A stretch of 64,000 bases of DNA from Bradyrhizobium sp. 1(2017) (GTDB taxonomy: Bacteria; Pseudomonadota; Alphaproteobacteria; Rhizobiales; Xanthobacteraceae). The DNA is taken from the NCBI RefSeq assembly GCF_011602485.2, contig NZ_CP050022.2:7150001-7214000 (forward strand), read 5' to 3'. A model generated the notes under the pieces. That model was given only the letters and a program-made list of their open reading frames with translations, was not told the origin of the DNA and made no database searches. A program made the translations under genes and the position numbers. Below, piece after piece: positions 42,546 through 60,350 of the stretch (positions are counted from its first letter, which is position 1; every line of letters starts with the position of its first letter).

Positions 42546-43688
42546 TCAGATCAACCCGCCCGCGTCGGCGACGCGGCGCTGGTGGTAGTCGGTGTCGCCG
42601 AACGAGTTCTCGATCATGGTGAGGCGCTTGAAGTAGTGGCCGATCTTCGCCTCCATGGTCATGCCGATGCCGCCGTGGAGCTGGATCGACTGCTGGCCGA
42701 CGAATTTCAGCGACTTGCCGATCTGCACCTTGGCCGCGGCGATGGCGTTGGAGCGCTCGCCGGCGTTGTCGAAATCGCTCGCCATGGTCGCGAACATCGA
42801 CATCGAGCGCGCCTGCTCGGCCGCGACGAACATGTCGGAGGCGCGGTGCTGGAGCGACTGGAACGAGCCGATCGCGACGCCGAACTGTTTTCGGGTCTTG
42901 ATATACTCGACGGTGGTCTTGAGCGACTCGTCCATCAGGCCGACCGCCTCCGCGCAAAGTGCAACGCGGGCCTCGTCGACCACGCGTTCGATCAAGGCGA
43001 GGGAATCCTCGGGGTTGCCGAGCACCGCATCCGCGCCGACCTCGACGCCTGTGAAGGTGATGTCGGCGGCGTGCAGGCCGTCCTGGGTCGGATAGCCCTT
43101 CTTGCCGACGCCCTTGGCGTTGGCGGGGACCAGGAACACGCCGATGCCGGTCTTGTCACGGCGATCGCCCTTGGTGCGGGCGGTGACGAGAAGCGTGTCG
43201 GCATTCTCGCCGTTGAGCACGACGAACTTCTCGCCGTCGATCACCCAGCCGTCGCCCTTCTTCTTCGCCGTCGTCGAGACGTCGAAGAGGTCGTAGCGCG
43301 AGTTCTTCTCGAGCTGGGCAAAGGCCAGCGTCTTGCTGCCGTCGATGATCCCGGGCACGTACGCGGCCTTCTGCGCGTCGGAGCCGGCATGGCGCAGGAA
43401 GCCGCCGCCGATCACGACCGTCGCCAGATATGGCTCGAGCACCAGCGCCTTGCCGAGCGCCTCCATCACGATCATGGTCTCGACGCCGCCGCCGCCGAAG
43501 CCGCCATCGGCCTCGCTGAACGGGAGGCCGAGCAGGCCCTGCTCGGCGAGCTTGAGCCAGACCGTTTTGCTCCAGCCGCCCTTCTCCTTCATGTATTTCT
43601 TGCGCTGCTCGAAATCGTAGGAATCGGTCAGCAGGCCGTCGATGCTTTCCTTGAGAAGCCGTTGCTCCTCGTTCAGGTCAAAATCCAT
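42546..43688 (-). CDS. pimD: PimD-like acyl-CoA dehydrogenase
   Basis: A 380-residue acyl-CoA dehydrogenase: the N-terminal helical domain (MDFDLNEEQRLLKESIDG...), the middle beta domain (FAQLEKNSRYDLFDVSTTA, KGVGKKGYPTQDGLHAADI), and the C-terminal FAD domain with QLHGGIGMTMEAKIGHYFKRLTMIE. In Rhodopseudomonas palustris pimC and pimD encode the two dehydrogenase subunits or isoforms of dicarboxyl-CoA oxidation. Here pimD follows pimC with a repeat-filled spacer. Confidence 0.88.
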   Translation of the reverse strand: MDFDLNEEQRLLKESIDGLLTDSYDFEQRKKYMKEKGGWSKTVWLKLAEQGLLGLPFSEADGGFGGGGVETMIVMEALGKALVLEPYLATVVIGGGFLRHAGSDAQKAAYVPGIIDGSKTLAFAQLEKNSRYDLFDVSTTAKKKGDGWVIDGEKFVVLNGENADTLLVTARTKGDRRDKTGIGVFLVPANAKGVGKKGYPTQDGLHAADITFTGVEVGADAVLGNPEDSLALIERVVDEARVALCAEAVGLMDESLKTTVEYIKTRKQFGVAIGSFQSLQHRASDMFVAAEQARSMSMFATMASDFDNAGERSNAIAAAKVQIGKSLKFVGQQSIQLHGGIGMTMEAKIGHYFKRLTMIENSFGDTDYHQRRVADAGGLI

Positions 43689-43871: not shown

Positions 43872-45062
43872 TCACAGCCCCAGCACCGCCTTGGCGATGA
43901 TGTTGCGCTGGATCTCGTTGGAGCCGCCGTAGATCGAGACCTTGCGGTTGTTGAAGTAGCTCGGCGCGATCTGGGCGGTCCAGTCCATGGCTTCGTTGGA
44001 GCCGTCGTCGCCGTGCAGATCGTAAGGCGCCGCGAACGGGCCGATCACTTCCATCAGCAGCTCGGTGGTGGTCTGCTGGATCTCGGAGCCCTTGATCTTC
44101 AGCACCGAGGAGGCCGGATTCGGCTTGCCCTTGCCGTGCTTGCCTTCGTCGGCGACGACGCGGAGCTGGGTGAGCTCGAGCGCCTTCAGCTCGATCTCGC
44201 ACGCCGCGAGCTTCTCGCGGAAGGCGGGATCCTGGATGATCGGCTTGCCGCCGGATTCGACCTTGGAGGCGAGATCCCTGATGCGGCGGATGCGCTCCTT
44301 GGAGACGCCGACGCGCGCGATGCCGGTGCGCTCATTGCCGAGCAGGAACTTGGCGTAGTCCCAGCCCTTGTTCTCCTCGCCGATCAGGTTCTCGAGAGGC
44401 ACCTCGACGTCGTCGAAGAAGACCTCGTTGACCTCGACGCCGCCGTCGATGGTCTGGATCGGGCGCACGGTGACGCCCTTCGACTTCATCGAGAACACGA
44501 TGAAGGAGATGCCCATCTGCTTCTTGGCGTTGTTGTCGGTGCGGCACAGGCAGAAGATCATGTCGGCGTGCTGGGCGAGCGTGGTCCAGGTCTTCTGGCC
44601 GTTGATGATCCACTTGTCGCCCTTGCGCTCGGCCTTGGTCTTGAGCGAGGCGAGGTCGGAGCCGGAGCCGGGCTCGGAGAAGCCCTGGCACCACCAATCG
44701 TCGACATTGGCGATGCGCGGCAGGTACTTCTTCTTCTGCTCCTCGTTGCCGAAGGTGTAGATGACGGGGCCGACCATGCTGACGCCGAAGGCGAGCGGCT
44801 GCGGCGCCGGATAGGACTGCAGCTCCTCGTTGAAGATGTAGTGCTGCACGGATGTCCAGCCCGTGCCGCCATATTGCGTCGGCCAGTGGCTGACGCCCCA
44901 GCCCTTCTTGTTGAGGATGCGCCACCACGTCACCATCTCGTCCTTCGAGAGGTGGCGGCCCTCGACCATCTTGCGCCGCGTATCCGGCGGCACGTTGTCG
45001 CGGAAGAACTGCCGCACTTCCTCGCGAAACGCCTGCTCTTCTTTCGTGAATGCGAGATCCAT
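43872..45062 (-). CDS. pimC: PimC-like acyl-CoA dehydrogenase
   Basis: A 396-residue acyl-CoA dehydrogenase. Clear family segments are QGFSEPGSGSDLASLKTKAERKGDKWIINGQKTWTT (FAD/substrate region) and a C-terminal YGGSNEIQRNIIAKAVLGL that ends the family fold. It is larger than the pimD product and probably oxidises dicarboxyl- or acyl-CoA with electron-transfer flavoprotein as acceptor. A perfect 27-nt inverted repeat lies upstream of it, in the spacer to pimB. Confidence 0.9.
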   Translation of the reverse strand: MDLAFTKEEQAFREEVRQFFRDNVPPDTRRKMVEGRHLSKDEMVTWWRILNKKGWGVSHWPTQYGGTGWTSVQHYIFNEELQSYPAPQPLAFGVSMVGPVIYTFGNEEQKKKYLPRIANVDDWWCQGFSEPGSGSDLASLKTKAERKGDKWIINGQKTWTTLAQHADMIFCLCRTDNNAKKQMGISFIVFSMKSKGVTVRPIQTIDGGVEVNEVFFDDVEVPLENLIGEENKGWDYAKFLLGNERTGIARVGVSKERIRRIRDLASKVESGGKPIIQDPAFREKLAACEIELKALELTQLRVVADEGKHGKGKPNPASSVLKIKGSEIQQTTTELLMEVIGPFAAPYDLHGDDGSNEAMDWTAQIAPSYFNNRKVSIYGGSNEIQRNIIAKAVLGL

Positions 45063-45199: not shown

Positions 45200-46387
45200 C
45201 TACTGCAACACCTCGAACAATCCTGCCGCGCCCATGCCGCCGCCGACGCACATGGTGACGACCGCGTACTTCGCCTTGCGGCGGCGGCCTTCGATCAAGG
45301 CGTGGCCGGTCAGGCGCGCGCCGGACATGCCATAGGGGTGGCCGACCGAGATCGCGCCGCCATTGACGTTGATCTTCTCGGGGTCGATGCCGAGCTTGTC
45401 GCGGCAATACAGCACCTGCACCGCGAAGGCTTCGTTGAGCTCCCAGAGGCCGATGTCGTCGACGGTGAGGCCGTGGCGCTTCAAGAGGCGCGGCACGGCG
45501 AAGACCGGGCCGATGCCCATCTCGTCCGGCTCGCAGCCGGCGGAGACGAAGCCGCGGAAGATGCCGAGCGGCTTGAGGCCGCGCTTGGAAGCTTCCTTGT
45601 CGCTCATGATCACGGAGGCGCTGGCGCCGTCGGAGAGCTGGCTGGCATTGCCGGCGGTGATCGAAAAGCCGTCGCCGCGCACGGGCTTGAGGCCGGCGAG
45701 GCCCTCGGCGGTGGTCTCCGGGCGCGGGCCCTCGTCCTGCGACAGCGTCACTTCCTTCATCGACACGGCACCGGTCGCCTTGTCGGTCACCGCCATCGTG
45801 GTGGTGATCGGCGCGAGCTCGTCCTTGAACTTGCCGCCCTGCTGGGCGGCCGCAGTGCGGCGCTGGCTCTCCAGCGAATATTCGTCCTGCTTCTCGCGCG
45901 AGATGCCGTAGCGCTTGGCGACGACCTCGGCGGTGTCGATCATGGGCATGTAGACCTCGCCCTTGATCTTGAGCAGCGCCGGGTCCTGGGCATGGAAGCC
46001 GTTCATCTTGTCGTTCTGCACCAGCGAAATCGACTCGCCGCCGCCGCCGACCGCGATCTCGACGCCGTCGAAGATCACCGAGCGCGCGGCGAGCGCGATG
46101 GCCTGCAGGCCCGAGGCGCATTGCCGGTCGATGGTGGTGCCGGCGACGGTGACGGGCAGGCCGGCGCGGAGCAGCGCCTTGCGGGCGATGTTGCCGCCGG
46201 TCGCGCCCTGCTGGAGGGCGGCGCCCATGACGACGTCCTCGACCTCCTTGGGATCGACCTTGGCGCGGGCGACGGCCTCGCCGATGGCATGGCCGAGCAG
46301 GGTCGCACCCTCGGTGGCGTTGAGCATGCCGCGATAGGCCTTGCCGATCGGGGTGCGGGCGGTGGAAACGATGACGGCGTCGGTCAA
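45200..46387 (-). CDS. pimB: PimB-like acetyl-CoA acyltransferase (thiolase)
   Basis: A 395-residue thiolase for the last beta-oxidation step. The active-site nucleophile is Cys90 (DRQCASG); the second set is His350 (SVGHPYG) and Cys380 (TMCVGGGMG). The start is TTG, overlapping the pimA stop (TTGA), so translation is coupled. Residues between are typical of the biosynthetic/degradative thiolase family. pimC follows after a large repeat. Confidence 0.92.
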
Positions 46388-48066
46388 GAGCGACCTCCTG
46401 ATGATGATTGAGCGGATTGTGACGGTTTCTGCTGCTGGCGCAACTCGTGCCGCGACAGCTTTCCGACCGGCGTGCGCGGCAGATCGTCGACGAACTCGAC
46501 CGCGGCCGGCAATTCGTGCTTGCCGAGCTTCCCGGTGAGCTGGCTGCGCAGCTCGTCGAGCGAGAACGGCTTAGCCTCGGGTCTCAGCTTGATGAAGGCC
46601 TTGGCGGCTTCGCCGCGATACTGGTCGGGGATGCCGAGCACGATGACCTCGTGCACGCCCGGTATGGTGTAGATCGCCTGCTCGATCATCTGCGGATAGA
46701 CGTTGAAGCCGCCGGAGATGATCATGTCCTTCTTGCGGTCGACCAGGAAGAAATAGCCGTCCGCATCCATGTGGCCGATGTCGCCGGTGAGGAAGCGGCC
46801 GTCGACGAAGGCATCCGCGGAGCCCTCCGGCCTGTTCCAATAGCCCTTGGTGACGTTCGGACCCTTGATGCGGATCTCGCCGACATCGCCCGGCGGCAGC
46901 ACTTTTCTCGGATCGTCCAGCGCGACCACGTCGAGCTCGATGCCGGGCAGCATCAGGCCGATCGAGCCGGGCTTCTCGGGGCCGGTGGGCGGATGGCCGG
47001 TGCCGGGCGAGCAGGTCTCGGTCATGCCCCAGCCGCTGCGCAGCTTCTTGCCGACCTTGCGCTCGAAGAAGTTGGCGACCTCGACCGGCAGCGGCGCACC
47101 GCCGGAGCCGATGGTGGCAAGCGAGGAGAAATCGCGCTTGTCGAGATCGGGCAGCGCGGCGATCGCGATCCACATCGTCGGCACGCCCGGAAAGTACGTC
47201 GCGCGCTTGACCTCGATGTCGCGCATCACGGCCTCGACGTCGAAGCGCTGGTGCAGCGAGATCAGATTGCCGTGGCTGAGCGAGGACAGCAGCACGACGG
47301 TGAGCGCATAGATGTGGAACAGCGGCAGCACGCAGATCACGCGCTCGATGACGTCACCGCGCGCGGCGCGCGACGGCTTGCCCCAGACGTCGTAGATCGA
47401 CACCGCCGAGGTGAGATTGCCATGCGTCAGCATGGCGCCCTTGGGCAGGCCGGTGGTGCCGCCGGTATATTGCAGCAGCGCGACGTCGTCGGCCGTCACC
47501 TTGGGCCATGCCGCCGGCGCGGCCGCGCCCTCGACGAAGGCCTTGAAGGTGACGATGCGGGGATCGCTGGGGATCGTTGCCTGCGGCGTGCCGACCTTGC
47601 CCCAATCGTCGTCTTCGCAGACGACGAGGCGATCGATCAGGCCCTTCTCCAGGAATTTCAGCGCCGTCGGCAGCAATGCGGCGAGGTTGGAGGTGACGAG
47701 CAGGCGCGAGCCTGAATCGGAGACCTTGTGCGTCAGCGCGATCTCGCCGTCGAGCGGGGAGAGATGCGCGACGCGGCTGCCGGCCTTCAGCGCACCGAAG
47801 AAATTGACGGGGTGATCCGGCGTGTTGCCCAGGAACAGCGCGACGGAGGAGTTCTTGCCGCAGCCGGCGCGCAAGAACGCCGCAGCCGCGCGCTCGGCCC
47901 TCTCGGCAAGCTCGGTGTAGGTGATCGGACGATCGCGAAACTCCAGCGCGGTGCGCGGGCCGTAATCGGCGGCAGCTTTCGACAGCAGGTCGGGTAGCGA
48001 GCCCTGGACGATGGTGTCGTCCCAACGCACGCCTTCGGGGTAAAACTGTTCGCCGGGATGGGTCAT
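46384..48066 (-). CDS. pimA: PimA-like acyl-CoA synthetase (AMP-forming)
   Basis: A 560-residue adenylate-forming ligase. Motifs include [59 protein letters not shown] and the catalytic-lysine region [14 protein letters not shown]. In the pim system this enzyme activates dicarboxylic or fatty acids with CoA. I take the ATG at 48066; an earlier in-frame start at 48084 adds only six residues. A dispersed palindrome lies upstream, and the stop overlaps the start of pimB by 4 nt. Confidence 0.92.
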
Positions 48067-48088
48067 TGCTTCTCTAAACCACACAGAC

Positions 48089-48187: not shown

Positions 48188-50284
<2,097 letters not shown>

Positions 50285-50329: not shown

Positions 50330-50348
50330 TGCGGAATTTAATTCCGCA
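50330..50348. promoter_or_regulatory. Perfect 19-bp palindrome, candidate IclR operator
   Basis: TGCGGAATT-T-AATTCCGCA sits in the 131-nt gap between pimF and the IclR gene. IclR-family operators are typically palindromes with GGAA/TTCC half-sites, so this is a strong candidate for autoregulation and control of pimF. A minus-strand TTGACA (50388-50383) with a weak TAACCC 17 nt away could be the pimF promoter, which would place the palindrome around its start site. Confidence 0.75.
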
Positions 50349-50415: not shown

Positions 50416-51282
50416 ATGAAGCGTACAGGAAAGAAGACTGCGACCGATCGGAATTTCGTCGTCGCGCTTTCCCGCGGACTGGACGTATTGCGCGCATTCC
50501 AACCCAATGACGGCCTTCTCGGCAATCAAGAGATCGCGGCGCGGACAAATCTGCCCAAGCCGACCGTGTCGCGGCTGACCTATACGCTGACCAAGCTCGG
50601 CTATTTGACGCCGGTTCCCCGTTTCGAGAAGTACCAGCTCACGCCGGCCGCCATGTCGCTCGGCTACGCCGCGCTCGCCAATCTCGGTGTTCGGCATTTG
50701 TCCGAGCCGTTTCGCGAGGACGTGATGCGCGCGACCGGCGGCGCGGTCGCCGTCGGCGGCCGCGATCGTCACAGCATGATCTATTTCGGGCAGAGCCGCG
50801 GCACCGAGACGGTCGGCGTTCAACTTGACGTCGGCTCCCGCGTGCCGATTGCAACCAGCGCGATGGGGCGCGCCTATTTCTGGGCGCTCGATTCCGACGA
50901 TCGCGCCGAGCTCTCGCGTCTGCTGCGCGAGCATTACGGCAGCCGCTGGCCCAAGATGCGCGATGGACTGGAACGCTCCGGCGAGACCGTGGCGAAATAC
51001 GGCTTCGCGATCTCCGTCGGCGACTGGCACGACGACATCGGCGCCGCAGGCGTCGCGCTCAAGCTCAACGACGGAACCGGGCCCTACGCGTTCAATTGCG
51101 GTGCGCCCGCATTCCGTTTCACGGAAGAGCGTTTGATCAACGACATTGGACCGCGTCTGCTCACGATGGTAAGGAACATCGAAGCGGCACTCGGGGGTCT
51201 GATGCCGCAATCCAAAAAAGAAATCAGCAAAAAGCTGAAATCAGGAGGAAGAGTTGCACGTGTGGCCGAGGGGATCAGATAG
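50416..51282 (+). CDS. IclR-family transcriptional regulator
   Basis: A 288-residue IclR protein. The winged helix-turn-helix covers about 13-80 (ALSRGLDVLRAFQPND, NQEIAARTNLPKPTVSRLTYTLTKLGYL), and the GAF-like ligand domain extends to about 265. I choose the ATG at 50416, with CAGGG just upstream, over a start 120 nt earlier that would lie in the operator. It is divergent from pimF and starts 66 nt before the transporter ATPase gene. It probably senses an acid or acyl-CoA and controls both sides. Confidence 0.9.
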   Translation: MKRTGKKTATDRNFVVALSRGLDVLRAFQPNDGLLGNQEIAARTNLPKPTVSRLTYTLTKLGYLTPVPRFEKYQLTPAAMSLGYAALANLGVRHLSEPFREDVMRATGGAVAVGGRDRHSMIYFGQSRGTETVGVQLDVGSRVPIATSAMGRAYFWALDSDDRAELSRLLREHYGSRWPKMRDGLERSGETVAKYGFAISVGDWHDDIGAAGVALKLNDGTGPYAFNCGAPAFRFTEERLINDIGPRLLTMVRNIEAALGGLMPQSKKEISKKLKSGGRVARVAEGIR

Positions 51283-51348
51283 CCTTTGTCATCACCGGGA
51301 GCGGTTCGCATCGCCCCTTTGCCCACTCAATCGCGTGGGCGAGACGAG

Positions 51349-52146
51349 ATGACGCAGGCACAGCTCGCGCGGGGGACATCGCCCCTGCTCGCCGTTCGCG
51401 ACGTCAGCGTCGTGTTCGGCGGCATCATTGCGCTCAACGGCGTGTCCTTCGACATGCACAAGGGCCAGATCCTCGGATTGATCGGCCCGAACGGCGCCGG
51501 CAAGACCACGCTATTCAACTGCCTCTCGCGGCTGTACCAGCCGTCGTCCGGCGACATCCTGATGGAAGGCACGAGCATCCTGTCGCGTCCGCCGCACCGG
51601 ATCGCCGAGATCGGCATCGGCCGCACCTTCCAGAATGTGGCGTTGTTTCCGAATCTGTCGGTGATGGACAACGTCCGCGTCGGCGCACATTCGAAGACCT
51701 CCAGCGACATCATCAGCGACTCCCTGAAGCTTGCCTGGGTCCGGCGCAGCGAGACCACCGTCAACAAGAAGGTGCACGAGATCCTCGCCTATCTCGACCT
51801 CGAGGACGTCGCCCACACCATCGTCTCCGGCCTGCCCTTCGGCACGCAGAAGCGCGTCGAGTTGGCGCGCGCGCTCGCGGCCGATCCGAAGATCCTGCTG
51901 CTCGACGAGCCGGCCGGCGGCCTCAACCACGAGGAAGTCCACGTGCTCGGCGATCTCATCCGCCGCATCCGCGATGAGCGCCACATGACCGTGCTCCTGG
52001 TCGAGCACCACATGGGTCTCGTGATGTCGATCGCCGACCACGTCGTCGCGCTGAATTTCGGCAAGAAGCTCGCGGAAGGCACGCCCGCCCAGGTGCAGGC
52101 GGACCCGGACGTCATCAAGGCCTATCTCGGGAGCAAGGACCAATGA
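51349..52146 (+). CDS. LivG-type ABC transporter ATPase
   Basis: A 265-residue branched-chain amino-acid-type (HAAT) ABC ATPase. Walker A is GPNGAGKTTLFN, the signature PFGTQKRVELARALA is the usual variant for LivG, Walker B is LLLDEPAGGLN, and the BCA_ABC_TP_C tail (EGTPAQVQADPDVIKAYLG) is present. By context the transporter may import dicarboxylic, fatty or aromatic acids rather than amino acids. It starts at ATG 51349, after the IclR gene, and overlaps the next ATPase by 4 nt. Confidence 0.92.
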   Translation: MTQAQLARGTSPLLAVRDVSVVFGGIIALNGVSFDMHKGQILGLIGPNGAGKTTLFNCLSRLYQPSSGDILMEGTSILSRPPHRIAEIGIGRTFQNVALFPNLSVMDNVRVGAHSKTSSDIISDSLKLAWVRRSETTVNKKVHEILAYLDLEDVAHTIVSGLPFGTQKRVELARALAADPKILLLDEPAGGLNHEEVHVLGDLIRRIRDERHMTVLLVEHHMGLVMSIADHVVALNFGKKLAEGTPAQVQADPDVIKAYLGSKDQ

Positions 52147-52856
52147 CGACGCTGCTCAACGTCAAGGACCTGCGCGCCTATTACGGCCAGGTCCAGGCGC
52201 TCCACGGCCTGTCCTTCTCGCTCAATGAGGGCTCGCTCGTGACGCTGCTCGGCGCCAACGGCGCCGGCAAGACCACCACGCTGCGCGCGATCTGCAACAT
52301 GGTGCGCTCCACCGGTGCGATCGAGTTCGACGGCAAACCGCTGAACAACCGCTCGACCGAGAACATCGTGCGGTTCGGCATCGCCCATGTGCCGCAGGGC
52401 CGCGGCACCTTCACCACCATGACGGTGGAGGAGAATCTCCAGTTGGGGGCCATCACCCGCAAGGACAGCGCCGGCATCATCTCCGACATCGAGCGCATGT
52501 ACGCGCATTTCCCGGTCCTGAAGCAGCGGCACACCCAGCAGGCCGGCACGCTGTCCGGCGGCGAGCAGCAGATGCTCGCGGTCGCCCGCGCGCTGATGCT
52601 GCGGCCGCGGCTGATGCTGCTCGACGAGCCGTCCTTCGGCCTCGCGCCGCTGGTGGTGCGCGACCTGTTCGGTATCCTCGGCAAGATCAACCGCGAGGAC
52701 AAGGTGTCGATCCTGGTGGTCGAGCAGAACGCGCAGCTCGCGCTCGAGCTCGCCGACCAGGCCTACGTGATCGAGACCGGCCGCATCGTGATGTCCGGCA
52801 AGGCCAAGGACATCGCGAACAACGAAGAAATCCGCAAATCCTATCTGGGTTACTGA
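52143..52856 (+). CDS. LivF-type ABC transporter ATPase
   Basis: A 237-residue ATPase partner of the preceding gene. Motifs: GANGAGKTTTLRAI, LSGGEQQMLAVARALMLRPRLMLLDEP and the LivF-typical ENLQLGA and DLFGILGKINRE segments. The two ATPases act as a heterodimer under the two permeases. ATGA overlap upstream; the permease gene starts 13 nt after the stop with GAGGGAG. Confidence 0.93.
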   Translation: MTTLLNVKDLRAYYGQVQALHGLSFSLNEGSLVTLLGANGAGKTTTLRAICNMVRSTGAIEFDGKPLNNRSTENIVRFGIAHVPQGRGTFTTMTVEENLQLGAITRKDSAGIISDIERMYAHFPVLKQRHTQQAGTLSGGEQQMLAVARALMLRPRLMLLDEPSFGLAPLVVRDLFGILGKINREDKVSILVVEQNAQLALELADQAYVIETGRIVMSGKAKDIANNEEIRKSYLGY

Positions 52857-52869
52857 GGGAGCCGGGACA

Positions 52870-53748
52870 ATGGAGCTGTTCACCAACCAGGTCCTGGCCG
52901 GCATCGCCACGGGCGCGATCTATGCCTGCATGGCGCTCGCCGTGGTCATGATCTACCAGGCCATCGACCATCTCAACTTCGCGCAGGGCGAGATGGCGAT
53001 GTTCTCGACCTTCATCTCCTGGCAGCTGATGCAGTGGGGCGTGTCCTACTGGGCCGCCTTCCTGATCACGCTGGCATTCTCCTTCGTCGCCGGCATCGCG
53101 ATCGAGCGCATCCTGTTCAAGCCGCTCGCCAAGGCGCCGGTGCTGACCAACGTCGCCGGCTTCATCGCGCTGTTCGCGATCATCAACTCGTCGGCCGGCC
53201 TGATCTGGGACTTCACCATCAAGCAGTACCCGACCCCGTTCGGCTCCTCGCCCTTCCTGGGCAGCCAGCTGATCTCGACGCACCAGGCCGGCATGATCGG
53301 CGTTACCGTGCTGCTGCTGCTCGGCCTGTACTTCTTCTTTCAGTACACCCGCATCGGTCTTGCGATGCGCGCCGCCGCGTCGGTGCCTGAATCGGCCCGC
53401 CTCGTCGGCATCAACACGAGCTGGATGATCGCGCTCGGCTGGGGCATGGCGACCGCGATCGGCTCGATCGCCGGCATGCTGATCGCGCCGGTCGTGTTCC
53501 TCGAGCCCAACATGATGGGCGGCGTCCTGATCTACGGCTTCGCCGCCGCGGTGCTCGGCGGACTGTCGAGCCCGTTCGGCGCCGTCGTCGGCGGCTTCCT
53601 GGTCGGCATCTTCGAGAACCTTGCCGGCACCTACATTCCCGGCGTCGGCAACGAGCTGAAACTCCCGATCGCGCTCGCGCTGATCATCTCCGTCCTGGTC
53701 GTCAAACCCGCCGGCCTGTTCGGCCGGCAAATCGTCAAGCGAGTTTGA
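52870..53748 (+). CDS. LivH-type ABC transporter permease
   Basis: A 292-residue inner-membrane permease with about eight hydrophobic segments. The start (NQVLAGIATGAIYACMALAVVMIYQAIDHLNFAQGEMAMFS) and AAASVPESARLVGINTSWMIALGWGMATAIGSIAGML are typical of LivH. It is separated from the LivM-type gene by 2 nt. Confidence 0.92.
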   Translation: MELFTNQVLAGIATGAIYACMALAVVMIYQAIDHLNFAQGEMAMFSTFISWQLMQWGVSYWAAFLITLAFSFVAGIAIERILFKPLAKAPVLTNVAGFIALFAIINSSAGLIWDFTIKQYPTPFGSSPFLGSQLISTHQAGMIGVTVLLLLGLYFFFQYTRIGLAMRAAASVPESARLVGINTSWMIALGWGMATAIGSIAGMLIAPVVFLEPNMMGGVLIYGFAAAVLGGLSSPFGAVVGGFLVGIFENLAGTYIPGVGNELKLPIALALIISVLVVKPAGLFGRQIVKRV

Positions 53749-53750
53749 TC

Positions 53751-54770
53751 ATGAGCGCAGCAGAAGAAGTCGTTGGCGAAGGCCACGAGGCGGTCGAGGC
53801 GGTTCCGAAGCGGGCCATGACGCTGGGCACAGGCACCTCGCTGGTGGTGCTGGTGGCGCTGTTGATCGTGCCGGTGTTCGTCAAGAATTTCGTCATCTTC
53901 CAGATGACGATGCTCCTGATCTACGGGCTCGCCGTGCTGGCGCTGAACATCCTGACCGGCGGCTCCGGCCAGTTCTCGCTCGGCCAGAGCGCGTTCTACG
54001 CGGTCGGCGCCTATGTGTCCGCGGTGCTGATGGAGCATGCCAACGTCAACTACGCGCTGACCATTCCGATTTCCGCTGCGGTCTGCTTCGGATTCGGCTA
54101 CCTGTTCGGCAAGCCGGCGCTGCGGCTGTCGGGCGTCTATCTCGCGCTCGCGACCTTCGCGCTCGCCACCGCGATGCCTCAGCTGTTGAAGCTGAATTTC
54201 CTCGAGCACTGGACCGGCGGCGTGCAGGGTCTCGTCGTCACCAAGCCCGATGCGCCGTTCGGCCTGCCGATGTCGCAGGACATGTGGCTGTACTACTTCA
54301 CCCTCGCCGTGACGCTCGCGATCTACATCTTCTCGGTGAACCTGCTGCGCTCCCGCTCGGGCCGCGCCTTCATGGCGATCCGCGACAACGAGATCGCGGC
54401 CTCATCGATGGGCGTCAACGTCGCGCTGTACAAGACGCTGGCCTTCGGGGTGTCCGCCGGCATCACCGGCGTTGCCGGCTCGCTCGGCGCCATCGCCGTG
54501 CAATTCGTCGCGCCGGACAGCTACACCATCACGCTGGCGATCTCGCTGTTCCTCGGCATGGTCGTCGGCGGCGTCGGCTGGTTGCCCGGCTCGTTCGTCG
54601 GCGCGGCCTTCATCATCTTCGTGCCGAACATGGCGGAGAGCATCTCAAAAGGCCTCTCCGGCGCGGTGTTCGGCGTACTGTTGTTCCTCGTCATTTACCT
54701 GGTGCCGCACGGCTCGAGGCAGATCGCGATCCTGGGCCAGCAACTCGCCGGCAAGCTCAGAAAGAACTGA
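53751..54770 (+). CDS. LivM-type ABC transporter permease
   Basis: A 339-residue permease from the ATG at 53751 (an in-frame TTG two codons earlier is less likely). It has a hydrophilic N-terminal stretch, then the LivM core: GLAVLALNILTGGSGQFSLGQSAFYAVGAYVSA and SRSGRAFMAIRDNEIAASSMGVNVALYKTLAFGVSAGITGVAGSL. It ends 39 nt before the first binding protein. Confidence 0.92.
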   Translation: MSAAEEVVGEGHEAVEAVPKRAMTLGTGTSLVVLVALLIVPVFVKNFVIFQMTMLLIYGLAVLALNILTGGSGQFSLGQSAFYAVGAYVSAVLMEHANVNYALTIPISAAVCFGFGYLFGKPALRLSGVYLALATFALATAMPQLLKLNFLEHWTGGVQGLVVTKPDAPFGLPMSQDMWLYYFTLAVTLAIYIFSVNLLRSRSGRAFMAIRDNEIAASSMGVNVALYKTLAFGVSAGITGVAGSLGAIAVQFVAPDSYTITLAISLFLGMVVGGVGWLPGSFVGAAFIIFVPNMAESISKGLSGAVFGVLLFLVIYLVPHGSRQIAILGQQLAGKLRKN

Positions 54771-54809: not shown

Positions 54810-56045
54810 TTGCGTTTTGGAAGAACACTGCGAGCCGCCGCGCTGGTTACGGCAACGGCGGCCATTGCCCTCACCTCCGGCGCTGCACTCGCCCAAAAGA
54901 AATACGACACCGGCGCGTCCGATACCGAGATCAAGATCGGCAACATCATGCCGTACAGCGGTCCGGCGTCGGCCTATGGCGTCATCGGCAAGACCGAAGA
55001 AGCCTATTTCCGGATGATCAACGACAAGGGCGGCATCAACGGCCGCAAGATCAACTTCGTCAGCTATGACGACGGCTATTCGCCGCCGAAGGCCGTCGAG
55101 CAGGTCCGCAAGCTGGTCGAAAGCGACGAGGTGCTGGTGGTGTTCAACCCGCTCGGCACGCCCTCGAACACGGCGATCCAGAAGTACCTCAACGCCAAGA
55201 AGATCCCGCAGCTCTTCGTCGCCACCGGCGCCACCAAGTGGAACGACCCGAAGAACTTCCCCTGGACCATCGGCTGGCAGCCCTCCTACCAGAGCGAAGC
55301 GCAGATCTACGCGAAATGGCTGATGAAGGAGAAGCCGGACGCCAAGGTCGCGATCCTCTACCAGAACGACGATTTCGGCAAAGACTACCTCAAGGGCACC
55401 AAGGACGGCCTCGGCGCCAAGGCCTCGTCCATGATCATCATGGAGGAGAGCTACGAGGTGTCCGAGCCGTCGATCGACGGCCACATCGTCAAGATCAAGG
55501 CCGCCAATCCCGACGTGCTGCTGATCTACACCACGCCGAAGTTCGCCGCCCAGACCATCAAGAAGACCGCCGAGCTCAGCTGGAAGCCGCTGCAGATCCT
55601 CACCAACGTGTCGATCTCGGTCGGCAGCGTGATGAAGCCCGCCGGCTTCGAGAACGCGCAGGGCGTGCTGTCGGCAGCCTATGCCAAGGATTCGACGGAT
55701 CCGCAGTGGGCCAACGACCCCGGCATGAAGAAGTGGAACGAGTTCGTCGACAAGTACATGCCTGGCGCCGACAAGTCGGACACCAGCATGGTCTACGGGT
55801 ATGGCGCCGCCTCGACGCTCGCCAAGGTGCTGGAGATGTGCGGTGACGATCTCACCCGCGCCAACATCATGAAGCAGGCGGCGGCGTTGAAGGATTTTGC
55901 TCCGGACACGCTGCTGCCCGGCGTCAAGATCAACACCAGCGCCACCGACTTCGCCCCGATTGCGCAGCTCCAGATGATGCGCTTCAAGGGCGAGAAGTGG
56001 GAACTGTTCGGCGAGATCATCAGCGGCGACGTCGCCTCCGAGTGA
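54810..56045 (+). CDS. ABC transporter substrate-binding protein 1 of 4
   Basis: A 411-residue periplasmic type I binding protein (Peripla_BP_6 family). The TTG at 54810 has AAGGAG 6 nt upstream and is preferred over an earlier in-frame TTG at 54792. A Sec signal ends in GAALAQ, and the mature start QKKYDTGASDTEIKIGNIMPYSGPASAYG is shared by all four paralogues. Substrate contact regions include LGTPSNTAIQKYLN and FVATGATKWNDP. This is the copy closest to the permease genes and ends in a strong terminator. Confidence 0.92.
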   Translation: MRFGRTLRAAALVTATAAIALTSGAALAQKKYDTGASDTEIKIGNIMPYSGPASAYGVIGKTEEAYFRMINDKGGINGRKINFVSYDDGYSPPKAVEQVRKLVESDEVLVVFNPLGTPSNTAIQKYLNAKKIPQLFVATGATKWNDPKNFPWTIGWQPSYQSEAQIYAKWLMKEKPDAKVAILYQNDDFGKDYLKGTKDGLGAKASSMIIMEESYEVSEPSIDGHIVKIKAANPDVLLIYTTPKFAAQTIKKTAELSWKPLQILTNVSISVGSVMKPAGFENAQGVLSAAYAKDSTDPQWANDPGMKKWNEFVDKYMPGADKSDTSMVYGYGAASTLAKVLEMCGDDLTRANIMKQAAALKDFAPDTLLPGVKINTSATDFAPIAQLQMMRFKGEKWELFGEIISGDVASE

Positions 56046-56070
56046 CACGCTGACGCTATAATTGAAGTCG

Positions 56071-56103
56071 AAAAGCCCCCGCGGGCGACCGCGGGGGCTT
56101 TTT
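56071..56103 (+). terminator. Rho-independent terminator after binding protein 1
   Basis: A 12-bp stem (56071-56082 with 56091-56102) of the AAAAGCCCCCGC type, an 8-nt loop and a closing T run. Confidence 0.95.
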
Positions 56104-56164
56104 GTTGACGGAAGGCGTCAATCTTGTTCAATGCGGCGCCGATCCATCTCGGGGTAGGAGAACA

Positions 56165-57391
56165 ATGGCTGCCGTTCGTCTTCAGGTTGCGACCATTCTG
56201 GCCGCATTCGCGTTGTGCACCGCAATGAGCAGCGGAGCGCTGGCGCAAAAGAAATACGACATCGGCGCCTCCGACACCGAGATCAAGCTCGGCAACATCA
56301 TGCCCTATAGCGGCCCCGCCTCCGCCTATGCCGTGATCGGCAAGACCGAAGAGGCTTATTTCAACATGATCAACGCCGAGGGCGGCATCAACGGCCGCAA
56401 GATCAAGTTCATCTCCTATGACGACGCCTATTCGCCGCCGAAGACGGTGGAGCAGGCGCGCAAGCTGGTCGAGGGTGACGGCGTGCTGCTGATCTTCGGC
56501 TCGCTCGGCACGTCCACCAACAGTGCCATCCGCAAATACATGAACGACAAGAAGGTGCCGCAATTGTTCGTGGCGAGCGGCGCCTCGAAGTGGAACGACC
56601 CCAAGCAATATCCCTGGACCATGGGCTGGCAGCCGAGCTACGTCAGCGAGGCACGCATCTACGCCAAGTACATCATGAAGGAGAAGCCGGACGGAAAGAT
56701 CGCCGTGCTCTACCAGAACGACGATTTCGGCAAGGACTATCTGAAGGGGCTGAAGGAGGGCCTCGGACCCAAGACCTCGATGATCGTGCGGGAAGAAGCC
56801 TACGACACCTCCGAGCCGGCGATCGACGAGCGCGTCGTGAAGCTGAAGTCCACGGGCGCCGATATCTTCATCAGCATCACCAGTCCGAAATTCGCGGCGC
56901 AGGGGATCAAGAAGGCGGCGGAGATCAACTGGCATCCGATGCAGATCATCTCCAACGTCTCGGCCTCGGTCGGCGGCGTGCTGGAGCCGGCAGGCCTGGA
57001 GATCTCGCAAGGCATCCTGTCGGCGAGCTACGCCAAGGACGGGTCCGATCCGCAGTGGAACGCCGACGACGGCATGAAGAAGTTCTACAATTTCCTCGCG
57101 CAGTACGAGCCCAAGGCCAACAAGCTCGATGCCGGCGTGGTGTTCGGCTATGCCGCGGCGCAGACCATGGTGAAGGTGCTGCAGATGTGCGGTGACGATC
57201 TCACCCGCGAAAACGTCATGAAGCAGGCCGCAAGCCTGAAGGATTTCGAGCCCGACACGCTGCTGCCCGGCATCAAGATCAACACCGCACCGGACAATTT
57301 CGCTCCGATCGAACAGCTGCAGATGATGCGCTTCAAGGGCAGGAAGTGGGAGCTGTTCGGCGACATCATCTCGAGCCAGCTCGGCCATTGA
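56165..57391 (+). CDS. ABC transporter substrate-binding protein 2 of 4
   Basis: A 408-residue paralogue of the previous gene. The ATG at 56165 has TAGGAG just upstream. It has a signal peptide (ending GALAQ) and the mature start QKKYDIGASDTEIKLGNIMPYSGP. It is the most divergent by eye in the pocket region (FGSLGTSTNSAIRKYMNDKKVPQLFVASGASKWNDPKQYP: Ser and Thr in place of the shared GTPPN and TGAT), so its substrate preference may differ. No clear terminator follows. Confidence 0.92.
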   Translation: MAAVRLQVATILAAFALCTAMSSGALAQKKYDIGASDTEIKLGNIMPYSGPASAYAVIGKTEEAYFNMINAEGGINGRKIKFISYDDAYSPPKTVEQARKLVEGDGVLLIFGSLGTSTNSAIRKYMNDKKVPQLFVASGASKWNDPKQYPWTMGWQPSYVSEARIYAKYIMKEKPDGKIAVLYQNDDFGKDYLKGLKEGLGPKTSMIVREEAYDTSEPAIDERVVKLKSTGADIFISITSPKFAAQGIKKAAEINWHPMQIISNVSASVGGVLEPAGLEISQGILSASYAKDGSDPQWNADDGMKKFYNFLAQYEPKANKLDAGVVFGYAAAQTMVKVLQMCGDDLTRENVMKQAASLKDFEPDTLLPGIKINTAPDNFAPIEQLQMMRFKGRKWELFGDIISSQLGH

Positions 57392-57648
57392 AGCCGCGCA
57401 GGCGCGCAATTCAAAATAGCTTGTATTCCACGCGACAACTTGTGCGTCGCTGAGCGGCGACGCGCCTCATCTCGCGCGCCGGAATATTCCGCATCCTCTC
57501 GAAAAAAGAGCGCCTTGCTGCGGCCGCGCCGGCGCGGCGTTCTCCTTGCTGGCCGCCCGAGAAGGGTATTCAATGTGTGCCGAAGCGACGCGAAAAGATC
57601 GCTTCCAATCAAGAACACGACACATTCAACCGACCTAGGGAGATCAAG
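57392..57648. other. 257-nt spacer between binding proteins 2 and 3
   Basis: No gene here. A perfect 12-bp palindrome, CGGAATATTCCG, lies at 57480-57491, and GC-rich inverted stretches lie at 57515-57550. The AGGGAG ribosome site of binding protein 3 is at its end. This may hold a separate promoter. Confidence 0.4.
57480..57491. promoter_or_regulatory. CGGAATATTCCG palindrome upstream of binding protein 3
   Basis: Its half-site (minus-strand TGCGGAAT at 57493-57486) is the same 8-mer as in the 50330-50348 palindrome, but the halves are adjacent instead of separated by 3 nt. It may be a second IclR site or chance. Confidence 0.35.
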
Positions 57649-58878
57649 ATGCCTGCAATGCATGTGCGATTGGGGGCCTTCTCGGCTGCCCTCGTACTGG
57701 CTGCCACCCTGTCCACGACGGCGTTCGCGCAGAAGAAATACGACACCGGCGCGACCGACACCGAGATCAAGATCGGCAACATCATGCCCTACAGCGGACC
57801 GGCTTCCGCCTACGGCGTGATCGGCAAGACCGAGGAGGCCTATTTCCGCAAGATCAACGCGGAAGGCGGTATCAACGGCCGCAAGATCAACTTCGTTTCC
57901 TATGACGACGCCTATTCGCCGCCGAAGACCGTGGAGCAGGCGCGCAAGCTGGTCGAGAGCGACGAGGTGCTGCTGATCTTCAATTCGCTCGGCACGCCGC
58001 CGAACTCGGCGATTCAGAAATACATGAACCAGAAGAAGGTGCCGCAGCTGTTCGTCGCCACCGGCGCCACCAAATGGAACGATCCGCAAGCCTTCCCGTG
58101 GACGATGGGCTGGCAGCCGAACTACCAGAGCGAGACCGTCATCTACGCCAAGTACATCCTGAAGAACAAGCCCGACGCCAAGATCGCGGTGCTCTATCAG
58201 AACGACGATTACGGCAAGGACTATCTGAAGGGCTTCAAGGACGGGCTCGGCGCCAAGGCGGCCTCGATGATCGTCATCGAGGACAGCTACGAGGTCTCCG
58301 AGCCGACCATCGATTCGCACATCGTGAGGCTGAAGGCCTCCGGCGCCGACGTCTTCATGAACATCACCACGCCGAAATTCGCGGCGCAGGCGATCAAGAA
58401 GAACGCCGAGCTCGGCTGGAAGCCGCTGCATTTCCTCAACAACGTCTCGGGCTCGATCGGCGCCGTGATCAAGCCGGCCGGCTTCGAGAACGCGCAGGAC
58501 ATCGTCTCCTCGCAATATTTCAAGGACCCGACCGACGCCCAATGGAAGTCCGACGCGGCGATGATCGTTTGGAACGAATTCCTGGATAAGTATTATCCGG
58601 AAGCGAACCGCGCCGACGCCTCGGTGATGTACGCCTACATCGTGAGCCAAGGTCTCGTTCAGGTGCTGAAGGCCTGCGGCGACAATCTGACCCGCGAGAA
58701 CGTCATGAAGCAGGCCGCCAGCATCAAGGATTACGAGCCGGCCGGCCTGCTGCCCGGCATCAAGGTCAACACCTCGGGCAGCGACTTCGCCCCGCTCTCG
58801 CAGCTGCAATTGATCCGTTTCAAGGGCGAGCATTGGGAGCGATTTGGCGACATTTTGAGCGGCGACGTCGGCGGCTGA
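57649..58878 (+). CDS. ABC transporter substrate-binding protein 3 of 4
   Basis: A 409-residue paralogue. ATG 57649 is preceded by AGGGAG (6-nt spacing). Signal MPAMHVRLGAFSAALVLAATLSTTAFAQ, then the shared mature start QKKYDTGATDTEIKIGN. The pocket region reads NSLGTPPNSAIQKYMNQKKVPQLFVATGATKWNDPQAFP, almost the same as copy 4. It ends in a hairpin with a T run (58924-58955). Confidence 0.92.
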   Translation: MPAMHVRLGAFSAALVLAATLSTTAFAQKKYDTGATDTEIKIGNIMPYSGPASAYGVIGKTEEAYFRKINAEGGINGRKINFVSYDDAYSPPKTVEQARKLVESDEVLLIFNSLGTPPNSAIQKYMNQKKVPQLFVATGATKWNDPQAFPWTMGWQPNYQSETVIYAKYILKNKPDAKIAVLYQNDDYGKDYLKGFKDGLGAKAASMIVIEDSYEVSEPTIDSHIVRLKASGADVFMNITTPKFAAQAIKKNAELGWKPLHFLNNVSGSIGAVIKPAGFENAQDIVSSQYFKDPTDAQWKSDAAMIVWNEFLDKYYPEANRADASVMYAYIVSQGLVQVLKACGDNLTRENVMKQAASIKDYEPAGLLPGIKVNTSGSDFAPLSQLQLIRFKGEHWERFGDILSGDVGG

Positions 58879-58923
58879 CATTAACCAGTCGCCGAAGATA
58901 CGGCTCAAATCGACTAAAGGCGC

Positions 58924-58953
58924 AGCCCCTGCGGCGTTGCCGCAGGGGCTTTT
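58924..58953 (+). terminator. Rho-independent terminator after binding protein 3
   Basis: A 12-bp stem (58924-58935 with 58939-58950), 3-nt loop, then TTT. Confidence 0.85.
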
Positions 58954-59059
58954 CCTTGAAGCTTTCGGGCAAATCGTATTGAATTGCGACCGCGTCACCA
59001 AAAACAATCAAGCCAAGAAAAGGAACGCGCACACATCAAGAAAAATAGGGAGATTTGGA

Positions 59060-60289
59060 ATGCCCGCTGTCACCGGCAAGCTTGCGGCCGCATCACTTGC
59101 GCTCGCGCTTTTTGCGGCCACGACGTCGACCGCATCGGCCCAGAAGAAATACGATACCGGCGCGACCGACACCGAGATCAAGATCGGCAACATCATGCCC
59201 TACAGCGGACCGGCCTCCGCCTACGGCATCATCGGACGGACCGAGGCCGCCTATTTCAAGAAGGTCAACGAAGAGGGCGGCATCAACGGCCGCAAGATCA
59301 ATTTCGTCTCCTACGACGACGCCTATTCGCCGCCCAAGACGGTGGAGCAGGCGCGCAAGCTGGTCGAGAGCGACGAGGTGCTGCTCGTCTTCAACTCGCT
59401 CGGCACCCCGCCGAACTCGGCGATCCAGAAATACATGAACTCCAAGAAGGTGCCGCAGCTGTTCGTCGCGACCGGCGCCACCAAGTGGAACGATCCGCAA
59501 GCTTTTCCCTGGACGATGGGCTGGCAGCCCAACTACCAGAGCGAGACGCAGATCTACGCGAAATACATCATGAAGACCATGCCGAACGCCAAGATCGGCG
59601 TGCTCTACCAGAACGACGATTACGGCAAGGACTACCTGAAGGGCCTGAAGGACGGCCTCGGCGCCAAGGCCGCAAGCATGATCGTGCTGGAGGAAAGCTA
59701 CGAGACCTCGGAGCCGACCATCGACAATCACATCGTCAAGCTGAAGGCGACCGGCGCCGACGTCTTCGTCAACATCACCACGCCGAAATTCGCGGCGCAG
59801 GCGATCAAGAAGATCTCCGAGATCGGCTGGAAGCCGACCCACTTCCTCAACAACGTCTCGGCCTCGGTCGGCAGCGTGATCAAGCCCGCCGGGTTCGAGA
59901 ATTCGCAGGACATCATCTCTGCCGCCTATCTGAAGGACGTGTCCGATCCGCAGTGGAAGGACGACGCCGGCATGAAAGCCTTCCTGGAGTTCATGACGAA
60001 GTACTTCCCCGAAGGCGACAAGCTCGACGGCGGCACCATCGTCGGCTACGGCGTGGCACAGACGCTGGTCGAAGTGCTGAAGAAGTGCGGCGACAATCTC
60101 ACGCGCGAGAACGTCATGAAGCAGGCGGCAAGCCTGAAGGACTTCCGCACCGAGGTGCTGTTGCCCGGCATCAAGATCAACACTGGCGCGAACGACTTCG
60201 CACCGATCAGCTCGCTGCAGCTCATGAAGTTCAAGGGCGACAAGTGGGATCTGTTCGGTGACGTGATCAGCGCCGACGCCGGCGGCTAG
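59060..60289 (+). CDS. ABC transporter substrate-binding protein 4 of 4
   Basis: A 409-residue paralogue most like copy 3, with the same AGGGAG ribosome site and signal style (ATTSTASAQ). Shared core QKKYDTGATDTEIKIGNIMPYSGPASAYG, then NSLGTPPNSAIQKYMNSKKVPQLFVATGATKWNDPQAFPWTMG. Likely the most recent duplicate pair. Followed by a strong terminator, which closes the transport locus. Confidence 0.92.
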   Translation: MPAVTGKLAAASLALALFAATTSTASAQKKYDTGATDTEIKIGNIMPYSGPASAYGIIGRTEAAYFKKVNEEGGINGRKINFVSYDDAYSPPKTVEQARKLVESDEVLLVFNSLGTPPNSAIQKYMNSKKVPQLFVATGATKWNDPQAFPWTMGWQPNYQSETQIYAKYIMKTMPNAKIGVLYQNDDYGKDYLKGLKDGLGAKAASMIVLEESYETSEPTIDNHIVKLKATGADVFVNITTPKFAAQAIKKISEIGWKPTHFLNNVSASVGSVIKPAGFENSQDIISAAYLKDVSDPQWKDDAGMKAFLEFMTKYFPEGDKLDGGTIVGYGVAQTLVEVLKKCGDNLTRENVMKQAASLKDFRTEVLLPGIKINTGANDFAPISSLQLMKFKGDKWDLFGDVISADAGG

Positions 60290-60318
60290 CCTACAGCTGG
60301 ATCCGCGTGCTCCAAAGG

Positions 60319-60350
60319 GCCCTCCGCGAGTTTATCGCGGAGGGCTTTTT
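60319..60350 (+). terminator. Rho-independent terminator after binding protein 4
   Basis: An 11-bp stem (60319-60329 with 60335-60345), loop GTTTA, five T's. Confidence 0.95.

Follow-up and report, generated by a model that had tools for sequence, protein, structure and literature searches.

Background

In Escherichia coli two receptors, LivJ and LivK, serve a single Liv core, LivHMGF, in the import of amino acids. In 2011 Giuliani et al. assayed three tandem receptors of Rhodopseudomonas palustris CGA009, RPA3723 to RPA3725, encoded beside pimFABCDE (PMC3223731). RPA3724 and RPA3723 were reported to bind fatty and dicarboxylic acids with differing profiles, RPA3725 bound nothing, and the cluster was described as peculiar to the clade of Rhodopseudomonas and Bradyrhizobium; the parts of that account consulted here make no mention of promoter-like elements or terminators. 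Here we describe four tandem receptor genes, S1 to S4, behind one ATP-binding cassette (ABC) transporter core of Bradyrhizobium sp. 1(2017). They lie in a stretch of 64,000 nucleotides (the window, to which all positions refer) of a genome of 7.86 Mb in a single contig. Like the R. palustris array as published, they are tandem type I receptors with one ABC gene set by the pim operon, so that the window array belongs to a known kind and is a larger version of the published one, with four receptors instead of three.

Tripartite tricarboxylate transporters, which are not driven by ATP, also combine many receptors with few membrane components. Their orphan receptors are reported to be expanded in Bordetella and Rhodoplanes (PMC5994714), in a different transporter class and in far larger numbers. 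The Bra system of Rhizobium belongs to the same ABC class as the window system, and its receptor BraC3, encoded away from the core, was found in transport assays to interact with the core and to alter its range (PMC2978685), which makes it a tested precedent for sharing by orphan receptors. Bra is described with two amino acid receptors, whereas the window genome has four tandem and about 15 dispersed ones, with the array beside a fatty-diacid pathway. The fatty acid ABC receptor of Thermomonospora curvata, 4n03, is also among the closest known systems.

An original prediction, made from the letters of this stretch, proposed separate expression of several receptors for one shared permease, and this main idea gains support from the present analysis. 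We consider it likely that the locus is a Bradyrhizobium pimelate-locus importer with one Liv-type core, in which S1 goes with the core operon and S2 to S4 are separate cassettes, the receptors having differing acid preferences. The LivG/F and LivH/M core would supply the neighbouring pimFABCD genes, which encode beta-oxidation, with dicarboxylic and fatty acids of medium to long chain length. S1 would be made together with the core from one operon, probably starting at the IclR gene, S2, S3 and S4 would each be expressed from a cassette with a promoter-like element ahead of it, and transcripts of S1, S3 and S4 would end at strong terminators. By analogy with the assayed receptors we infer that the ligands of S1 to S4 are fatty or dicarboxylic acids. 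Each receptor probably favours its own set of these, different ligands being plausible, and all four would dock on the same permease.

Results and discussion

The receptor array and its core

The genes of the array are as follows.
50416..51282, + strand, IclR-family regulator (PcaR/PobR-like), divergent from pimF; start codon by eye
51349..52146, + strand, LivG-like ATPase (NF008449 271.8 bits, below the 362 cut-off); start by eye in the open reading frame (ORF) 51286-52146
52143..52856, + strand, LivF-like ATPase (NF008626 241.8 bits, below the 441 cut-off)
52870..53748, + strand, LivH-like permease (NF008011 104.3 bits, below the 379 cut-off)
53745..54770, + strand, LivM-like permease, the sole copy of its type in the genome; the runner-up LivM-like gene is 40% identical
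54810..56045, + strand, S1, binding protein copy 1 (411 aa, TTG start)
56165..57391, + strand, S2, binding protein copy 2 (408 aa), fast-evolving sister of S1
57649..58878, + strand, S3, binding protein copy 3 (409 aa), sister of S4
59060..60289, + strand, S4, binding protein copy 4 (409 aa), sister of S3

On the + strand the order is IclR, LivG, LivF, LivH, LivM and S1 to S4, the four receptor genes all pointing in one direction. Two ATPases, two permeases and a type I Peripla_BP_6 receptor place the system in the hydrophobic amino acid type of ABC importers, and tandem Peripla_BP_6 receptors right behind a LivGFHM core divergent from pimF make the array one of the RPA3723-3725 type. The four ORFs are intact and all match Peripla_BP_6 (PF13458) with 181-199 bits, in agreement with the predicted four full-length type I binding proteins. 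Each is also preceded, as predicted, by a ribosome site, a Shine-Dalgarno-like stretch read by eye as AAGGAG, AGGAG, GGGAG and GGGAG for S1 to S4.

In contrast to the E. coli Liv system, all eight proteins, the four receptors as well as the four of the core, fall short of the NCBIfam cut-offs set for the Liv branched-chain models (receptors 52-62 of 477 bits, LivG 272 of 362, LivF 242 of 441, LivH 104 of 379 and LivM 124 of 366). An annotation for branched-chain amino acids is therefore unsupported, and the label 'branched-chain amino acid receptors' in the public record is very probably wrong for such genes here. A sequence search of the PDB with LivM and LivH gave zero matches.

Terminators and a promoter-like element

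The following elements, all on the + strand, lie between and behind the receptor genes.
56073..56104, + strand, terminator after S1 (-27.5 kcal hairpin, T-tract)
56105..56132, + strand, promoter-like element before S2, TTGACG...TGTTCAAT
57523..57538, + strand, weak hairpin after S2, without T-tract; several aligned relatives have a full terminator there
57546..57574, + strand, promoter-like element before S3, TTGCTG...TATTCAAT
58924..58953, + strand, terminator after S3 (-26.2 kcal hairpin, T-tract)
58956..58984, + strand, promoter-like element before S4, TTGAAG...TATTGAAT
60319..60350, + strand, terminator after S4 (-25.2 kcal for the best-scoring longer hairpin, T-tract)

Strong terminators had been predicted after copies 1, 3 and 4; they were found in the window and are conserved across Bradyrhizobium. 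The S1 and S4 terminators came from a scan for a hairpin plus T-tract, which gave none after S2 in the window, and a generic scan gave only the S3 terminator and the weak hairpin at 57523. The best of 20 mononucleotide shuffles per stretch reached -13.0 kcal for S1, -16.9 for S2, 0 for S3 and -18.4 for S4. At a threshold of -20 kcal or lower, Bradyrhizobium loci have terminators after S1 in 67/73, S2 in 29/72, S3 in 49/57 and S4 in 55/61 cases, and mononucleotide shuffles in 3/365, 0/360, 0/285 and 5/305. With a laxer -15 kcal the terminators number 71, 41, 53 and 59 for S1 to S4, and the shuffles climb to 20, 2, 5 and 29. The six unclassed last receptors of Bradyrhizobium arrays had no terminator at -20 kcal (0/6; shuffles 2/30).

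Aligned leaders contain, behind the end of the upstream gene, the element TTGnnn, 13-17 bases and T[AG]TT[CG]AA. Leaders were taken once per locus and class, identical ones counted once and the window included, and those of S2 to S4 only where the gap to the upstream gene was 60-500 nucleotides (nt). In Bradyrhizobium the element is present before S2 in 67/70, S3 in 37/46 and S4 in 57/63 leaders and before S1 in 0/74, against 4/1400, 1/920, 0/1260 and 0/1480 dinucleotide shuffles, respectively. Other genera provide the better test, since the Bradyrhizobium loci themselves suggested the pattern. There it precedes 31 of the 43 receptors at position two or later and none of the 28 at position one, a limited control in that these leaders, shortened to about 160 nt, consist for the most part of livM coding sequence. 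All 12 misses fall in loci L135, L138, L139, L142, L149, L152 and L162. The element tracks position rather than class: the S1-type gene that stands second in arrays of the genus numbered g28 has it in 5/5 cases. It is absent before the S1-type gene at position four of a single g26 array, and from the 300 nt upstream of four dispersed receptors (0/4; leaders from L165, L166 and two from L167). A built-in sigma-70 scan gave no site at the S2, S3 and S4 leaders. The element is a putative promoter. Neither it nor the pattern of one core and many receptors was found in print, in a literature mostly judged by title and abstract.

The hairpins might instead stabilise mRNA 3' ends or terminate only partially, with S2 to S4 expressed mainly by read-through from the core operon and the promoter-like elements of minor importance. 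It is indeed known that hairpins downstream of binding-protein genes can increase the amount of receptor relative to permease, and in the window S2 is joined to S3 without a strong terminator. We nevertheless regard this as unlikely, given an element conserved before S2, S3 and S4 but not before the first-place S1, and present also in genera outside those that defined it. The original proposal, that several receptors are expressed as separate units for a single permease, is supported by these elements and by the conserved terminators after S1, S3 and S4.

Kinship of the receptors across arrays

A careful tree, built from 90 of 360 rows, joined S1 and S2 as sisters (99/97) and S3 and S4 as sisters (99/98); in the 360-row tree the clades holding one window copy only had supports of 97, 90, 95 and 67 (S1 to S4). 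Copy 2 had been taken for the outlier of the four, which the 90-row tree rules out: its outlying look reflects faster evolution of S2. Copies 3 and 4, predicted to be the latest duplicate, are indeed sisters, but the split is old. S1- and S4-type members occur in five other genera (g28, g6, g40, g26 and g20), and in the trees the S2 type is confined to Bradyrhizobium and the S3 type to Bradyrhizobium and g20. Because of this spread we place the duplications far back; g20 holds both S3 and S4 types, and the S3/S4 split predates the separation from that genus, as judged from the trees.

S1 is the orthologue (82-85% identity) of the second receptor of the Rhodopseudomonas-like g28 arrays, and S4 that of their last, third receptor. 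S2 and S3 have no counterpart in g28 arrays, nor has the first g28 receptor one in the window array. Three of the six g28 loci have three copies, with pairwise identities of 57-60, 59-61 and 70-74%; since these fit the printed 60 and 71%, g28 is probably Rhodopseudomonas. Read in this way, S1 would be of the RPA3724 type and S4 of the RPA3725 type. One g28 genome of 4.1 Mb (L147) has a pim-type core and two receptors and no pimA match at the cut-off used; it may resemble the reduced Rhodopseudomonas strain said to keep most of the pim cluster (PMC12016538).

Of 80 fetched loci, 69 were bracketed by livM and a glycerate kinase gene. They hold four receptors in 30 cases, three in 34, five in 3 and two in 2, and the class order, unclassed rows ignored, is identical in all 69. 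The commonest class sets are S1-S2-S4 (30) and S1-S2-S3-S4 (25). Class calls differ for the first receptor of L096, which the quick tree places with S2 and the careful tree next to S1; the first-place receptors of L088, L093 and L099 were called S2 and lie outside the careful tree's rows. The longest array among other genera is that of L152 (g26), with six tandem subfamily receptors behind one core. With a near-constant core and a set order in which receptors come and go, such arrays offer a natural series for the study of ligand change at a kept dock.

Conserved and class-specific positions

The mature parts of S1 to S4 are 68-78% identical in pairs. The almost identical mature N-terminus that had been noticed is real, 39-46 of the first 50 mature residues being identical pairwise. 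S3 and S4 of the window share an exact 59-nt stretch, which had hinted at conversion. Recent gene conversion was rejected, however, as identity at 4-fold sites is equal within and between loci (0.75 and 0.74 for the first 64 residues of S3/S4). For this reason old purifying selection is our preferred explanation of the N-terminus, over recent duplication or conversion.

The prediction that the copies differ in a pocket-facing segment around the Lys-Trp-Asn-Asp (KWND) motif did not hold as stated. The motif is the same in S1 to S4 and nearly invariant in relatives, and its flanks vary modestly (Thr/Ser ahead; Lys/Gln, Asn/Gln/Ala and Phe/Tyr behind). In Bradyrhizobium 36 positions are class-specific, the C-terminal end column excluded, and they are not significantly concentrated in the pocket loops (12/89 against 24/294, p = 0.15), which were set by eye, from predicted secondary structure and an alignment to the leucine-binding protein with its contact residues rather than from coordinates. 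A receptor alignment (A1) joined the four proteins of the window to 41 relatives out of 43 chosen.

The four copies might be redundant, binding the same ligands and kept for receptor dosage over the permease. In keeping with this, 190 of the 383 mature positions have one residue at 85% or more across all four classes, and KWND and most positions of the N-lobe are invariant. The stability of four orthologous classes, the 36 class-specific positions, the constant class order in the 69 bracketed loci and the differing ligand profiles reported for two R. palustris members (PMC3223731) all argue against it, and we judge redundancy quite unlikely. It is likewise quite improbable that some copies, such as S4 by analogy with RPA3725, which bound nothing in the 2011 screen, now sense, scavenge or bind compounds outside the class instead of serving uptake. 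In favour of this reading, S4-type genes are present in 59 of the 69 bracketed loci and in other genera, and so are kept for some function. Against it, S4 retains most N-lobe positions within the same array, and the negative screen may reflect a gap in the compound library.

One core and dispersed receptors

A search of the window genome with P0001 (E <= 1e-80) gave 19 subfamily receptor loci, the four of the array and 15 elsewhere. Of the latter 13 are intact and two broken, one by an internal TAG and one split between frames. All 15 are orphan receptors, away from any core and 11-689 kb from the nearest LivM-like match (E <= 1e-3). No LivH or LivM relative was found among the ORFs of at least 60 aa in stretches of 17 to 20 kb around dispersed receptors; two of the 12 stretches (L167 and L172) have ATPases that share 23-32% identity with LivG or LivF.

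Across 22 genomes, hand-picked as mainly few-contig ones with five of g28 added, 20 have one pim-type LivM (E <= 1e-60) and the other 2 have two, which makes 24 in total, against at least 317 receptors, 2 to 29 per genome (the counts for G004 and G031 being lower bounds). Across the family 149 genomes were compared at E <= 1e-80, with up to 12 candidates scored per genome, so that receptor counts are lower bounds. Of these genomes 62 have both core and receptors, 81 neither and 6 are discordant, five with receptors only (completeness 82-92%) and one with the core only (85%). All 37 genomes with at least four receptors have the core. Of the 122 with a completeness of 90% or more and a contamination of 5% or less, 58 have receptors and 57 the core; in the rows listed, 57 have both and one has a receptor only. 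Fisher's test for co-occurrence gives p of about 1e-34, which overstates the case because the genomes share ancestry and one receptor is all that many of them have. At a stricter E <= 1e-140 the core is recognised in only 38 of the 149. Genera g20, g16, g11 and g32 each include one genome with both core and receptors and another with neither. This co-occurrence fits a dependence of the dispersed receptors on this core, and also their mere duplication from it.

Tentatively, and as a possibility about which we remain somewhat doubtful, the pim-locus LivGFHM may be a shared port for the array and most of the 13 intact dispersed receptors. Substrates would then be added not via transporters but via receptor cassettes (own promoter, one gene, terminator), gained or relocated, and the dispersed receptors would feed the one core. 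If one core does serve up to 19 receptors, counting cores greatly underestimates the import range of soil bacteria, and a single deletion of the core should stop the import of many unrelated substrates together. For at least one dispersed gene, 7646760, the tree places other members of its lineage within the array, in genomes of g6 and g28; the gene has thus moved out of the array or been left out of it.

Neighbours of dispersed receptors, with ORFs picked roughly by third-position GC content, include matches below cut-off to a CaiB-type CoA-transferase (L168), a 3-hydroxyisobutyrate-dehydrogenase-like enzyme (L166), ferredoxin reductases (L175 and L176) and an iron-type alcohol dehydrogenase (L174). 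The pick at L168 was a wrong-strand ORF over the receptor. Family scans gave no match for 3/10 and 7/10 neighbours in two sets with three proteins in common. At L168 (G000:4913000-4930000, in the window genome) an IclR-type regulator, the CaiB-type CoA-transferase and a dispersed receptor stand in a row that resembles a small core-less catabolic unit. L170 (G000:6795000-6814900) has three dispersed receptor genes close by, two of them the broken ones, with acyl-CoA ligase-like genes or pieces near, and is perhaps a decaying second cluster. Bradyrhizobium iriomotense SZCCT0007 and B. jicamae SZCCT0349 have a second LivGFHM core (L083 and L087; LivM 87-89% identical), and in these 21-kb stretches the pim queries found no match and subfamily receptors are absent.

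The pim genes and candidate operators

On the opposite side of the IclR gene lie the pim genes and a palindrome.
42546..43688, - strand, pimD, pimeloyl-CoA dehydrogenase small subunit (TIGR03203 804.5 bits, cut-off 653)
43872..45062, - strand, pimC, pimeloyl-CoA dehydrogenase large subunit (TIGR03204 894 bits, cut-off 624)
45200..46387, - strand, pimB-like thiolase (NF005494 627 bits, cut-off 615)
46384..48084, - strand, pimA, dicarboxylate-CoA ligase (TIGR03205 1128 bits, cut-off 706)
48188..50284, - strand, pimF-like enoyl-CoA hydratase/3-hydroxyacyl-CoA dehydrogenase (by domains only)
50330..50348, + strand, perfect palindrome TGCGGAATTTAATTCCGCA between pimF and the IclR gene, a candidate operator

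PimA, PimC and PimD exceed their equivalog cut-offs and stand in order with PimF and PimB, as in a pim locus. A shorter related palindrome, CGGAATATTCCG (57480-57491), in the S3 leader was dropped as a second operator, since only some of the Bradyrhizobium loci viewed (every fourth) have it. The palindrome at 50330-50348 is a candidate IclR operator through which the IclR regulator may act. The sequence CGGAATNNNATTCCG occurs once each in 64 of the 176 loci fetched, at about equal distance from livM in most of the oriented 21-kb loci that have it.

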